From the NCBI GenBank assembly GCA_003567475.1, contig PWZL01000046.1, positions 1 through 59,804 on the forward strand: a stretch of DNA of 59,804 nucleotides, given 5' to 3'. The notes beneath the pieces are model-generated. The model did not search any database. It worked only from the letters and a program-made list of their open reading frames with translations, and was not told where the DNA came from. This document shows, one piece after another, positions 3,272-41,010 of the stretch. The translations under genes and the position numbers were made by a program. The stretch's first letter is position 1. Each line of letters opens with the position of its first letter. The stretch comes from Gammaproteobacteria bacterium. Its GTDB lineage: Bacteria > Pseudomonadota > Gammaproteobacteria > Steroidobacterales > PWYM01.

Positions 3272-3924
3272 AGGTCCGTGAGCTTGGTGAACTCGTAGCC
3301 GCCGCCGCGTGGTCCCCAGACGTGCTCGCCTGCCTCGGTGAAGCCGCGGTCCCAGTTGGTAAAGCCGGTGGCTGTCACGCTCGAGATCGAGCGCATGAAG
3401 GCGGCGCCGCGCCAGGTGTTGCGGCAGTGTTCGTCGATGGTGCTGCCGGCGAACACGCCGGGCTCCACCTGCCGGTAGAGATTGTCGCAGCCGTCCTCGG
3501 CGCTCAGTGTGCCAGGATCCAGAGCCTCGAAACGCGCCGGGAACTGCCAGTCCCCGACATGCTCCGCAGCCTGCTCGAAGGTGTAGACGCGCAGGCGGAT
3601 CGCGCCGTCGGCATCACGGAAATAGCGCTGGATACGCTGGCGATAAGGCCTCTCCTGCCCTTCGATCTGCTGCTCGGTGTACACCCAGTAGCCCTCGTCA
3701 CGCCGGGGCCAGATGCGCACCGCCCGAAACTCCACGACCTGGTAGTCGCTGTCGCGCGCGGCCTGCGGCGCGGAGGTGAACACGCCCGTGTGATAGCCGA
3801 CGATGCGGGCGAGTTCGGGGTCGGCCGGCTGAGGCGGATGGCTGGCGCAGCCGGCGACGAGCAGGATGACGAGCAGTGTGGTACCGACCCCTGCCTGGTG
3901 GCGCTGGGATGGCGATCGGATCAT
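3268..3924 (-). CDS. CpcT/CpeT-family lipoprotein
   Basis: A 218-residue lipoprotein (lipobox LVAGC about residue 26) with the CpcT/CpeT fold signature: GYHTGVFTSAPQA near the mature N-terminus, then EDGCDNLYR, CRNTWRGA, WDRGF and HVWGPRGGGYEF at the end. In cyanobacteria this family attaches phycobilins to phycobiliproteins as cytoplasmic lyases. Here the protein is predicted to be lipid-anchored outside the cytoplasm and no phycobiliprotein gene is in the window, so lyase activity is not implied. The start at 3924 is the first that gives a lipoprotein signal. It heads the minus-strand operon hydrolase, TRAP lipoprotein, SLC13 permease. Function in this setting unknown. Confidence 0.8.
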   Translation of the reverse strand: MIRSPSQRHQAGVGTTLLVILLVAGCASHPPQPADPELARIVGYHTGVFTSAPQAARDSDYQVVEFRAVRIWPRRDEGYWVYTEQQIEGQERPYRQRIQRYFRDADGAIRLRVYTFEQAAEHVGDWQFPARFEALDPGTLSAEDGCDNLYRQVEPGVFAGSTIDEHCRNTWRGAAFMRSISSVTATGFTNWDRGFTEAGEHVWGPRGGGYEFTKLTDL

Positions 3925-37221: not shown

Positions 37222-38076
37222 TCAGAGCAGCAGGGATGACATCCGGCGCCGATAGCGACCGGTGAGTTCCGATCCGGTCCCCAGGATATTGAACGCGGCC
37301 ACCAGACTGCGACGGGCGATAGCCTCGTCGAAGCTGCGGTCCCGGGCAAGCAACTCCAGCAGCTGTTCGAGTGCGGCTTCGTGCTGGCCCTCGCTGAACA
37401 GGCGGGCCGCGAGTTGCTGGCGGGCACGGTGATCGTCGGCGTTGTCGGTCAGGCGCTGCTCGAGGGTCGCGCGCTCGGGGGCATCCCCCAGGGCATCGGC
37501 GAACAGGACGTAGGCGCGCACCCGCTCTGCGCCATCCTTGGTCTGCGCATCCACGGGCAGGCTGGCCAGCAGGTCGCTGGCGCGCGCGGTGTCGCCGTGC
37601 ATCGCGAGGACCTCGGCGAGCTCCAGTGAAGTGTCGGCATCTTCCGGCTTGGCCTGGTGGGCTGCCTCCAGGCGCGCCAGGCGATCCTCGGCGGTCTCCG
37701 CGTCGGCGCCGGCCGCCCCGGGCGCGCCGGCTGCATCGGGCAGGTGACGGGCGAGCATCTCGCGGATCTGCGCTTCCGGTTGCGCGCCAACGAATTCATC
37801 GGCGATACGGCCCTGGAAAATCAGCTTGACCGTCGGCAGGCTGCGGATGCCCAGTTGCTGGGCGATCATCGGTTCCTCGTCGACATTGACCTTGACGACA
37901 TCGAGCACGCCGGCGTAGTCGGCGGCCAGACGGTCAAGGATCGGTGACAGCGTCTTGCAGGGCCCGCACCAGTCGGCCCAGAAGTCCACCAGGACCGGCA
38001 CTTCCATCGAGCGCTGCACGACCTCCTGGGCGAAAGTCTCGGCAGTGACGGGGCGGGCGGTGGCAGTGGCGGTCAT
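37222..38076 (-). CDS. cnoX: CnoX-like thioredoxin with TPR domain
   Basis: A 284-residue protein. Residues about 8-115 are a thioredoxin domain with active site WADWCGPCKTL and the cis-Pro in IRSLPTVKL. The remainder is helical and TPR-like (EDADTSLELAEVLAMHGD, HRARQQLAARLFSEGQHEAALEQLLELL). This is the architecture of CnoX (YbbN), a chaperone-like thioredoxin that hands clients to GroEL. Unlike E. coli CnoX it keeps the redox CGPC motif. ATG at 38076 has GGAG upstream; the frame is open a further 20 codons. Confidence 0.88.
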   Translation of the reverse strand: MTATATARPVTAETFAQEVVQRSMEVPVLVDFWADWCGPCKTLSPILDRLAADYAGVLDVVKVNVDEEPMIAQQLGIRSLPTVKLIFQGRIADEFVGAQPEAQIREMLARHLPDAAGAPGAAGADAETAEDRLARLEAAHQAKPEDADTSLELAEVLAMHGDTARASDLLASLPVDAQTKDGAERVRAYVLFADALGDAPERATLEQRLTDNADDHRARQQLAARLFSEGQHEAALEQLLELLARDRSFDEAIARRSLVAAFNILGTGSELTGRYRRRMSSLLL

Positions 38077-38166
38077 CGGGAACTCCGGGTGTGTGCGCTG
38101 GCCGCACAGAGTGGCGATGGCACACGCGGATTTCAAGCCGTCCAGGGCACGCGGGCGCCGCAGGCC

Positions 38167-38367
38167 CTACTCGTAGAGGCCAAGATCGTCGAGATCGAAA
38201 CTGTCCATGTCCAGCGCGGCGAGTTCGCGTGTCACCCGGCGCTCCTCCAGAACGGCTTCCAGGCGCCGTCGGGCGCCGCCGTCGTCACGCGCGGCGATGT
38301 CCCGAAGGTCGCGTACCGCGTCTTCGCCAGTGTCGCTCAGAGTGTCGCTATCGAGGTCAGCGTTCAT
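38167..38367 (-). CDS. small acidic protein, PA3496-like
   Basis: A 66-residue, Asp/Glu-rich protein with a basic middle (ARRRLEAVLEERRVTREL) and an acidic end (DSFDLDDLGLYE). The RRxEAxLEERRxxREL pattern followed by an acidic tail resembles the small PA3496-type proteins of gammaproteobacteria, annotated elsewhere as putative envelope-integrity proteins. It ends about 90 bases before cnoX on the same strand. Function unknown. Confidence 0.65.
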   Translation of the reverse strand: MNADLDSDTLSDTGEDAVRDLRDIAARDDGGARRRLEAVLEERRVTRELAALDMDSFDLDDLGLYE

Positions 38368-38517
38368 GTGATCCCGCTCCTCTGTTGACCGGGGTATCGT
38401 GGCAAGGAAGTGGGACCAGAGCCGGACAAGTCGTCATCCGCATTACAGTTTCGGGCCTGATAACCCTGAACGAACGGCGAACTCTGGTCCCCAAGGCCGT
38501 CCGTTCTGCGGGGGCGA

Positions 38518-38550
38518 CACGCCAGGGGGGGAGGGGGGGGAGTTGGCGTG
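38518..38550. repeat. inverted repeat enclosing a G7-A-G8 tract
   Basis: CACGCCA (38518-38524) and TGGCGTG (38544-38550) are perfect inverted repeats that enclose seven G, one A, eight G and AGT. Long G runs like this are rare and prone to slippage; the plus strand could form a G-quadruplex. It lies in the 216-base gap between two minus-strand genes, where no gene is seen. Confidence 0.6.
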
Positions 38551-38583
38551 CCGCCCCATGCAAAACAGCTGTGTTGAATGGCG

Positions 38584-38913
38584 TCAGCCGCGCTCCACCC
38601 CCGCGGCCGCTGCGGCCAGGCGGATCTCGCGCGCCGTTGCACGCTGGGTCTCGACACCGGCCGCCAGTGCGGTCGCCCGCGAGATGGCGCTGGTGATGCC
38701 CAGGCTGGATGCGAGCTCGTCCTGCGACAGGCGGGGCGCCGTGACGGTCATTTCATCGACGGTCATCGTGGGGCGGGGCGCCGTGACGACGATCTCATCG
38801 ATCACCCGCGGCGCAGCTTCAGCCGTCGCGGCGGTCAAGGGGGTCGCCGCCGCCATGGCAGTCGCTATCAACAGTACGCGACCGGTCGGGAAAACCCTCA
38901 AAAGCTTGTTCAT
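38584..38913 (-). CDS. small exported protein with two TonB-box-like motifs
   Basis: A 109-residue protein. A signal peptide (basic start, hydrophobic core LLIATAMAAATPL, likely cleavage at AEA|AP) leaves about 75 residues. Directly after the cleavage site come two similar segments, IDEIVVTAPR and VDEMTVTAPR, 15 residues apart. They resemble the N-terminal TonB box of TonB-dependent receptors, yet no plug or barrel follows; the rest is Ala-rich and helical. ATG at 38913 has AAGGTGAG six bases upstream. A -24/-12 type promoter and three activator-like sites lie in front, next to the divergent sigma54 activator gene. Function unknown. Confidence 0.72.
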   Translation of the reverse strand: MNKLLRVFPTGRVLLIATAMAAATPLTAATAEAAPRVIDEIVVTAPRPTMTVDEMTVTAPRLSQDELASSLGITSAISRATALAAGVETQRATAREIRLAAAAAGVERG

Positions 38914-38989
38914 GTCGCTCACCTTTCCGATAATTCGTGTTTCCGGGATGTCGTCTTTCGAGACAGCCTTCTGGTATGCCCAATAACAA

Positions 38990-39005
38990 TGCATCAAGTG
39001 TGCCA
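38990..39005 (-). promoter_or_regulatory. sigma54 (-24/-12) promoter of the small exported protein gene
   Basis: On the minus strand the sequence TGGCACACTTGATGCA fits the consensus TGGCACG-N4-TTGCW, with exactly ten bases between GG and GC. The expected start of transcription is about 38980, leaving a leader of about 65 bases before the ATG at 38913. The neighbouring regulator carries the GAFTGA sigma54-contact motif. Confidence 0.72.
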
Positions 39006-39049
39006 ATGTGGGGCATATAAAAAATCAATCACTTATGCGAGCATCGTAA

Positions 39050-39102
39050 TACGGAAAACCGTAAATAACGGAAAACCGTATACGTTTTGACGGAAATGCG
39101 TA
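39050..39102. promoter_or_regulatory. three activator-type binding sites (candidate UAS)
   Basis: TACGGAAAACCGTA (39050-39063), AACGGAAAACCGTA (39067-39080) and the weaker GACGGAAATGCGTA (39089-39102) are related sites with inverted half-sites TACGG/CCGTA. CGTATACG (39077-39084) is a further palindrome at the end of the second. Their centres lie about 77, 94 and 116 bases upstream of the predicted sigma54 start, as is usual for enhancer sites. The last ends three bases before the regulator ATG, so autoregulation is likely. Confidence 0.65.
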
Positions 39103-39105
39103 AAT

Positions 39106-41010
39106 ATGGCCTTGACTGACGGCGAACCACCGTGCCCTGAAGCCGATCCCTATCTCTGGGTATTCCGCAGGATCCCGGCGATGGTGCTGGTCTTCGACGC
39201 CGAGGGCAGGGTGCAGGATGCCAGCGACACCTGGCTGTCCCGGATGCTCCACGCGCGCGACGAAGTCGTCGGTCGTCGGCCGGAGGATTTCGCCACGGCC
39301 GAGAGTGCCCGGCGGGTACAGGAGGAATATGCGCCGTTGCTGCGTCGCACGGGCCGGCTGGAGGCCGTCCCCATCGAGCTGCAGACACGCCACGGTGAGG
39401 TGGTGGACTGTGTCACCAGCGCCATCGTGGAGCATGCCGTCATCGACGGGAGCGGTTATCTGCGGACCGTGGCGGTCTACACCGAGTCGGCTGTGCAGGC
39501 GCACATCGAGCGCCACTACCGCGATCTCTATCGCGCAACGCCCGCCATGCTCTATACCGTGGATGCGGAGGGGCGGATCGTCCTCTGCAGTGATCGCTGG
39601 CTGAGCAAGATGGGCTATCGGCGTGAGGAGGTGCTCGGGCGGTTCATTTCGGAGTTCATGAGTTCCAGCAGTCAGGAGGCCCTGTCCGGCGGACGGCTGC
39701 AGCGGATCATCAGCACCGGCGAACTCGACAATGAACCGCGTGAGATGATCAGTCGTGACGGGCAGAGCATGGAGGTGCTCATTTCGGCGCATGCCGAGCG
39801 CGACGCCCAGGGCAGGGTCACCCGGATGCTGGTGGCGATGAAAGACGTCACCGAACGCAACCGCGCGGAGCGCGCCCTGCGGGAAGCCTTTGAGGAGAAC
39901 GCCCGGTTACGCGAGCAGCTTGAGCGTGAGCGCGATTACCTTCGCGAGGAGGTCAACGTCTCCATGAACTTCAGCCAGATCGTCGGCGAGTCGCCGGTGT
40001 TGCGCAAGATGCTCGCCCGGATCGAGGCCGTGGCCGAGACTTCCGCCAACGTCCTGCTGCTCGGCGAGTCGGGGGTCGGCAAGGAGCTGGTGGCGCGCGC
40101 TATTCATGCCCAGAGCCCCCGTGCCGGGCGTCCCCTGGTCAAGGTCAACTGTGCGGCGGTGCCGCGGGAATTGTTCGAAAGCGAGTTTTTCGGCCACGTC
40201 AAGGGCGCGTTTACGGGCGCGACCAAGGATCGGATCGGTCGTTTCCAGCTCGCCGACGGCGGTACGCTGTTCCTCGATGAGGTGGGGGAAATTCCACCGG
40301 AGCTCCAGAGCAAGCTGCTGCGCGTGTTGCAGGAAAAGGAGTTCGAGCCCGTAGGCAGTGACCGCACCCGCACGGTCGATGTCCGGGTGGTCGCCGCCAC
40401 CAACCGGGATCTCGAAGAAATGGTCGAGGCGGGGACTTTCCGCGATGACCTCTACTACCGGCTGACGGTGTTTCCCATCGAGGTGCCACCGCTGCGAGAA
40501 CGTGGAGCTGATGTGGTCCAGCTGGCCGCACATTTTCTGGAGCGCGCCTGCAAGGACTTCGGCTATCCGCCGATCGCCCTTGGCAGGGGCCATGCCGAGG
40601 CGCTGCGTGCCTATGACTGGCCGGGCAACGTGCGTGAATTGCAGAGCGTGATCGAGCGGGCGGTCATCCTTGGCAAGGGCGAGGTCCTGCGCCTGGATCT
40701 GGCGTTGCCGGGCGTGTCGGCGCCACGGGTGACTCAGGATGTCGCAGCGGGTGAGCGCCGACAGGGGGGTCCACCGGGCGGGGCGGGCGTCGCGGCCACG
40801 GCCGACCCGGGATTCCTGACGGAGGAGGAGTTCCGGGCGCGCGAACGCGACAATCTGCTGGCCGTGCTGGAGGCTGCGCAGTGGCGCGTCTCAGGCGCCG
40901 GTGGTGCAGCCGAGCTGCTGGGTGTGCCCTCGACCACCCTGGCCGATCGTATCCGGCGGATGGGGTTGCGGCGCCCGGCGCGTGCCTCCGGCGCCCGCGC
41001 GATGCGCTGA
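39106..41010 (+). CDS. PAS-PAS sigma54-dependent enhancer-binding regulator
   Basis: A 634-residue activator. Two PAS domains (about 18-125 and 135-255) precede a coiled-coil linker ([20 protein letters not shown]). The AAA+ domain has Walker [10 protein letters not shown] (about 318), GAFTGA for sigma54 contact (about 367), Walker [11 protein letters not shown] and the arginine-finger region. The end is a Fis-type helix-turn-helix ([22 protein letters not shown]). A Gly/Ala-rich spacer separates AAA+ and HTH. With no receiver domain, the PAS pair is the likely sensor; the ligand cannot be told. It is divergent from the small TonB-box-like gene, whose promoter it probably activates. Confidence 0.93.

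Follow-up and report, generated by a model that had tools for sequence, protein, structure and literature searches.

Gene arrangement and control region

The window, that is, the whole stretch of 59,804 nucleotides that was analysed, carries on its minus strand a small open reading frame (ORF) read from 38913 to 38584, with an ATG start and the ribosome-binding site (RBS) AAAGGTGAG. The ORF call, dN/dS and alignment point to a predicted small exported protein of 109 aa (38584-38913, minus strand), MNKLLRVFPTGRVLLIATAMAAATPLTAATAEAAPRVIDEIVVTAPRPTMTVDEMTVTAPRLSQDELASSLGITSAISRATALAAGVETQRATAREIRLAAAAAGVERG, in which a hydrophobic leader is followed by two TonB-box-like motifs and a tail. Start codons were assigned by rule. 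The preliminary description of a small secreted-type protein without a receptor barrel, in which about 50 residues follow the motifs, was confirmed: the tail behind motif 2 comprises 48 residues, Pfam returned nothing above its cut-off for the 109-aa protein, with no plug or barrel match, and NCBIfam gave zero matches. A known family for the window protein and five relatives was sought in the profile databases and none was found. Other matches to the protein in the window genome all lie in open frames of at least 656 aa, which have only the leader and the box in common with it, as in receptors. The C-terminal tail (38587-38730, minus strand) ends in an RLA..G signature shared, in alignment, by the proteins of the congeners and by three proteins of a distant family (f15). 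Structure prediction assigned short helices only to the small protein, at low confidence (mean pLDDT 58.8). The dN/dS of the ORF, 0.40-0.66, is consistent with a small protein that is translated and constrained, yet fast-evolving. Furthermore, the 5' UTR immediately ahead of the ORF (38914-38955, minus strand) is near-identical in three congeners even though the codons of the leader differ, a sign that another control element may lie there.

Divergently from the ORF, a gene on the plus strand (39106-41010) encodes an activator of 634 aa, with PAS-PAS and a sigma-54 AAA+ domain recognised by Pfam (PAS_4, 6e-21; Sigma54_activat, 3e-73) and a probable C-terminal helix-turn-helix region; the equivalog cut-off was not reached for any family. 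Of the 246 genomes of the order, 124 have a single-copy ortholog of the activator, and just partial matches inside much larger open frames were obtained in a sample of the wider class. Three ACG-N6-CGT palindromes on the minus strand represent candidate upstream activator sites: site 1, ACGCATTTCCGT, at 39090-39101, and sites 2 and 3, both ACGGTTTTCCGT, at 39068-39079 and 39051-39062. A candidate sigma-54 promoter, TTGGCACACTTGATGCATT (GG-N10-GC), is located at 38988-39006 on the same strand. Palindromes and promoter are kept in four congeners, one congener having an inverted core, AAAA instead of TTTT. The strict site pattern occurs nowhere else in the congener genomes than at this locus, and the activator therefore looks dedicated. 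Judged on the window by itself, the promoter pattern is no better than chance, so that the case for the promoter rests on its conservation.

The conservation was followed through the order in a named-genome scan of 210 relatives, 80 of which were kept, all of them assembled from metagenomes; the labels Woeseiaceae and Woeseia are frequent among them, and one genome is named Candidatus Rariloculus. Assemblies served as the genomes compared, and f1, f2, f5, f6 and f15 are anonymous family labels. Eighty loci were scored, the window and 79 others, one locus at a contig end being omitted. It can be observed that the layout of activator, palindromes and promoter spans the order including Woeseiaceae (80/80), with the -24/-12 promoter 120-160 bases from the activator gene at every locus scored. 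At least one palindrome is found at all 80 loci, at least two at 79 and three at 67, against a shuffled expectation of 0.015 per locus, and the palindromes cluster upstream of the -24 element, at distances of approximately 55, 75 and 95 bases. The features of a sigma-54-dependent unit, namely a -24/-12 promoter, upstream activator sites and an AAA+ activator, were all found. We infer that the transcript of the ORF and of the RNA described below is sigma-54-dependent and fired by the divergent PAS-AAA+ activator through the palindromic sites. The strong promoter had earlier been taken as an argument against decay; the argument holds, in that dedicated control and selection on the small gene indicate a gene that is not decaying, and the promoter type is corrected to sigma-54 (-24/-12) with upstream activator sites.

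The divergent slot is almost always occupied by a short ORF of 21-117 aa with a hydrophobic N-terminus, and many of these ORFs are of 30-51 aa with little besides the hydrophobic segment. At Woeseiaceae-type loci (L129, L146, L152, L176 and others) the divergent ORF occurs in discrete sizes of 30, 37, 45, 49-51 and about 94 aa, the shortest being approximately a single hydrophobic helix, for example MKDYKEEGLALAGMLVVLLGVMFAAAATVA. At two loci, L163 and L165, the RNA directly follows the promoter and there is no ORF.

TonB-box-like motifs of the predicted exported protein

The tandem TonB-box-like motifs noticed at the outset behind the signal sequence stand, and they match the boxes of the receptors of this genome. 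Motif 1, IDEIVVTAPR, occupies residues 38-47 (38773-38802, minus strand) and is supported by its matrix score and by congener conservation, while motif 2, VDEMTVTAPR, occupies residues 52-61 (38731-38760, minus strand) and is present in four of five congeners. Plug-domain matches number 36 in the window genome, corresponding to about 36 TonB-dependent receptors in 3 Mb. Among the 30 receptor N-termini examined, most boxes are [DE]EIVVTA or near it, and one receptor box, RVIDEIVVTAT, equals the small protein over ten residues. Scored with a matrix whose sole input was 28 TonB boxes from receptors of this genome, motif 1 reached 24.9 bits, compared with a receptor-box median of 24.2 (p = 0.001 against the shuffled protein). 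Moreover, positions invariant among four congeners are concentrated in the motifs, 17/22 against 22/82 elsewhere (Fisher p = 2e-5). By its score motif 1 qualifies as a TonB box of TonB-dependent receptors; the plug and beta-barrel of such receptors are absent from a protein of 109 aa. From their sequence, the motifs look like genuine TonB boxes, rightly placed after the leader.

TonB boxes are located in the mature N-terminal part of TonB-dependent receptors and group B colicins (PMC11658791). The window protein has the same motif at its mature N-terminal part and differs in that the box is doubled and no plug, barrel or toxin domain is present. Since TonB-dependent colicins have a TonB box near the N-terminus, the protein might be a TonB-dependent peptide exported against other cells in the manner of a bacteriocin. 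This is very unlikely indeed, given that no toxin domain was recognised in Pfam or NCBIfam, no recognised immunity gene adjoins the ORF, and the structure model is of low confidence and mostly unstructured. A leader with a box is also precisely the content of a receptor N-terminus, and the preliminary description had left room for a decaying receptor remnant. That account was not borne out and is considered extremely improbable: control is dedicated in five species, synteny extends across the order, the box is doubled and the C-terminal end is conserved under constraint. An ancient origin from a receptor N-terminus is possible.

Within the window's genus, at least one box is present in 5/5 members and two boxes in 4/5. 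Across the order, a box was detected in 12/88 ORFs of the divergent slot at p < 0.01 and in 15/88 at p < 0.05. The TonB reading had been staked beforehand on homologues retaining the motif; the genus and some distant families do keep a box, whereas most ORFs (73/88 at p < 0.05) are without one. In family f15, boxes occur in three genomes (MEELVVTAPR at L208, LQEITITAK at L209 and ITTIVITAK at L211), family f5 has the variants EEIVVYG, DEIVVNG and EELVVDG, and one Woeseiaceae-type locus has ADEIVVTER; the box is absent in the remaining slots. The box is therefore either ancestral with frequent loss or was gained repeatedly. When the tandem motif was searched in a sample of the class, the window itself was the sole match. 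In two genomes of f5, a further short secreted protein, bearing the motif EEIVVTAP once or twice, was observed at a separate locus (L043, 8653-8919, minus strand; L077, 4095-4331, plus strand), downstream of a murJ-like gene and with a common upstream element, CTCCAGCTTTCTCGATGG, and a terminator, and without a sigma-54 activator.

Most ORFs in the order have no box and many are of 30-51 aa, so that acting as a TonB decoy cannot be what the ORF does in general. The many relatives that retain the slot without a box, together with the RLA..G end that is kept alongside the box, would suit an exported effector that uses the motif otherwise and acts on a target other than TonB, for example an envelope protein, or as a signal. 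We regard this as improbable, the motif being equal to the genome's receptor boxes over ten residues. The window protein is still best read as a TonB decoy or competitor, although export of the peptide, its binding to and competition for TonB, and the signal sensed by the activator are all predicted.

The structured RNA and its C-rich loops

A structured RNA is predicted 3' of the stop codon (38404-38583, minus strand), supported by its fold and by congener identity. The stretch 38404-38575 folds at -78.5 kcal/mol (z -4.49), and identity among congeners is 81-86% for the RNA compared with 67-75% for the ORF. After the stop codon, C-run-loop hairpins are followed by a long terminator-like helix. 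In the window, fold and cross-locus comparison place a hairpin with a C-rich loop at 38501-38568 (minus strand), the loop ACTCCCCCCCCTCCCCCCC being at 38525-38543. The 3' domain (38404-38491, minus strand) folds by pairing of GGGGACCAGAG (38481-38491) with CTCTGGTCCC (38412-38422) and is terminator-like with a weak T tract; in other families this position has strong T runs. Along the stretch from ORF to RNA a single promoter and a single terminator-like end were seen, and the two probably share one transcript. Judged from sequence, a small ORF with the dN/dS of a translated gene and a structured RNA with compensatory arms lie on the same unit, as is required of a dual-function RNA. The preliminary description had treated the ORF alone; the ORF is real, but the better-conserved half of the unit, the structured RNA, had been missed.

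Across the order, a loop of at least five C closed by at least six uninterrupted pairs is present at 70/80 loci, with 60 distinct 5' arms. Stems of at least 8 bp closing C-runs were counted in 54/184 cases, against 5/184 after flank shuffling. The hairpins keep their loops of five or more C while the arms change, which is compensatory change. RNAalifold on the first wide alignment gave poor structure from misaligned columns, and pairs were counted on a structure set by hand. In 28 Woeseiaceae-type RNAs, 94.3% of the cells of the 3' module are paired compared with 32-50% when partners are slid, and the covariation score is 0.180 compared with 0.035-0.080; both values are biased towards the structure, which was built on the same 28 sequences. 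A covariance model of the Woeseiaceae-type RNAs recovered the same position and strand at 26 non-training loci (E ≤ 1e-7). In f2 and f5, it gave weak matches at the right place (E 0.007-0.6), two congeners followed at E 0.66-0.7, and no match was obtained in the window or its genome. Since the model is weak or absent across families, homology of the 3' module rests on position, element order and the C-loop hairpins. In Rfam 15 no family was above its gathering score for the RNA, the nearest for the window RNA being 6C RNA (RF01066; 23.7 bits against a threshold of 47, E 1.2). Relaxed Rfam thresholds brought nothing credible, a 5.8S rRNA match at L088 being attributable to chance.

Several local features accompany the RNA. 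L090 has two copies of the C-loop hairpin downstream of the divergent ORF, and the RNA-like sequence appears once more further on. At L115, about 3320-3400, the RNA region of a congener contains expanded G and C tracts, which may reflect real expansion or an assembly error. Of the genes downstream of the RNA in the window, one (38167-38367, minus strand) encodes a PA3496-like small protein, at 21.8 bits just under the cut-off of 22, and the other (37222-38136, minus strand) a YbbN/CnoX-type thioredoxin-TPR protein. A thioredoxin gene also adjoins the RNA at L163 and L165.

Regarding possible targets, the receptor RBSs of the window genome are often of the GGGGAG type, complementary to the C-rich loops. 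GGGGA is found in 8/26 receptor RBSs compared with 9/331 of other genes, for which start calls are noisier. When the Woeseiaceae-type loop was paired with receptor RBSs and with SD-matched controls, the gaps in three genomes with the system were 2.7, 3.1 and 2.3 kcal/mol; shuffled loops did as well in 0/100, 0/100 and 17/100 cases (Mann-Whitney p 0.004, 0.01 and 0.10). Two activator-less genomes gave gaps of -0.04 (56/100) and 1.85 (G059; 3/100, p 0.03), and the three genomes with the system differ from these two at a permutation p = 0.03. The better pairing makes receptor mRNAs plausible targets, yet receptors have G-rich RBSs in genomes lacking the system as well. The notion that such RBSs set apart the genomes with the system is weakened by these activator-less controls. 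Pairing of the C-rich loops with receptor RBSs is supported but not proven. The loop of the window RNA is nearly all C, and order-specificity is therefore not demonstrable for it. At receptor loci L221-L250 and L271-L300, RBSs are often GGGGGAGA-like, also in activator-less genomes, which hints at another common regulator.

The RNA might alternatively be the effector, a sigma-54-dependent sRNA whose C-rich loops have broad targets, namely any G-rich RBS, the ORF being a leader or a membrane peptide under loose constraint and the boxes a lineage-specific elaboration. The RNA is indeed better conserved than the ORF, which shrinks to about 30 aa or is lost, and the boxes are patchy across the order. 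On the other hand, constraint on the boxes is clear in the window's genus, dN/dS is below 1, and boxes recur at the same place in distant families; this account is considered possible but rather unlikely. Titration of CsrA/RsmA via GGA hairpin loops is suggested by many Woeseiaceae-type RNAs, in which one hairpin loop contains GGA (CCAGGAAGG), and by ACAUGGACGU-like hairpins in other families. However, not every RNA has GGA there, CAAAA and GAAAC being among the other loops seen, sites per RNA are few and the constant feature is the C-rich loop, so that titration appears very unlikely.

Comparison with known systems and proposed mechanism

The closest parallel in architecture is SgrS/SgrT, an RNA carrying a transporter-inhibiting small protein, in which both halves lower uptake; SgrT is poorly conserved, is missing in some species and acts on PtsG (PMC4021124). 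As in sgrR/SgrS/SgrT, an activator gene and an RNA lie in a conserved context, a 5' small ORF precedes a 3' pairing region and terminator, and the small protein is weakly conserved and absent in some species (PMC4021124). SgrT is cytoplasmic, SgrS is without C-rich loops, and neither has any sequence relation to the window unit. Moreover, SgrR is not known to be a PAS sigma-54 activator.

C-rich loops themselves have precedents. In Xanthomonas, sX13 has three C-rich loops that repress mRNAs whose start codon lies close to G-runs (PMC3771888). The window RNA resembles sX13 in its loops; however, sX13 is a 115-nt RNA with no ORF described and no divergent activator, and is confined to Xanthomonadaceae according to PMC3771888. 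In actinobacteria, two C-rich-loop hairpins of 6C RNA, or B11 (RF01066), bind G-rich RBSs (PMC10470900). The window RNA shares such hairpins and is a sub-threshold match to this family (23.7 bits against the cut-off of 47), but it comes from a different phylum, and 6C is without an ORF. The sRNA ChvR of Caulobacter represses the mRNA of a TonB-dependent receptor by pairing, partly near the RBS, and differs in being under ChvIG control, with one target found and no ORF described (PMC6237742). No description of the activator/ORF/RNA unit was found in the open-licence literature searched.

Combined with the boxes, the precedents of SgrS/SgrT, sX13, B11/6C and ChvR lead to the following proposal. 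The PAS-type sigma-54 activator would bind the three palindromic sites beside its own gene and fire the divergent -24/-12 promoter. The transcript would first encode the short exported protein, with TonB boxes in its mature N-terminal part, and after the stop codon would fold into the structured RNA, in which hairpins present the C-rich loops and the end is terminator-like. The peptide would occupy the C-terminal domain of TonB instead of the receptor TonB boxes, two boxes raising avidity for TonB, while the C-rich loops would cover the G-rich (GGGGAG-type) RBSs of receptor mRNAs. The anatomy, comprising activator, sites, promoter, synteny, ORF, boxes, RNA fold and compensatory change, is regarded as practically certain. 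The mechanism as a whole, a dual-function unit like sgrR/SgrS/SgrT with both products damping TonB-dependent uptake, is advanced tentatively, its likelihood being judged somewhat short of even. It is doubtful, though conceivable, that the unit represents an undescribed order-wide system in which one sigma-54 transcript throttles uptake twice, through a TonB-competing peptide and a new family of receptor-silencing C-rich-loop RNAs. To our knowledge, it would be the first TonB decoy from the cell that owns the TonB.

Dozens of receptors depend on the same TonB, about 36 of them in this 3-Mb genome, which raises the question of how a cell manages the competition for it. If the proposal is true, a self-made TonB-box peptide together with an RNA able to silence receptor mRNAs would give the cell a direct means of turning uptake down. 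Mechanism aside, there is here a conserved structured RNA with no Rfam 15 match above threshold and with a dedicated activator, and both RNA and activator occur across a widespread, little-studied bacterial group.
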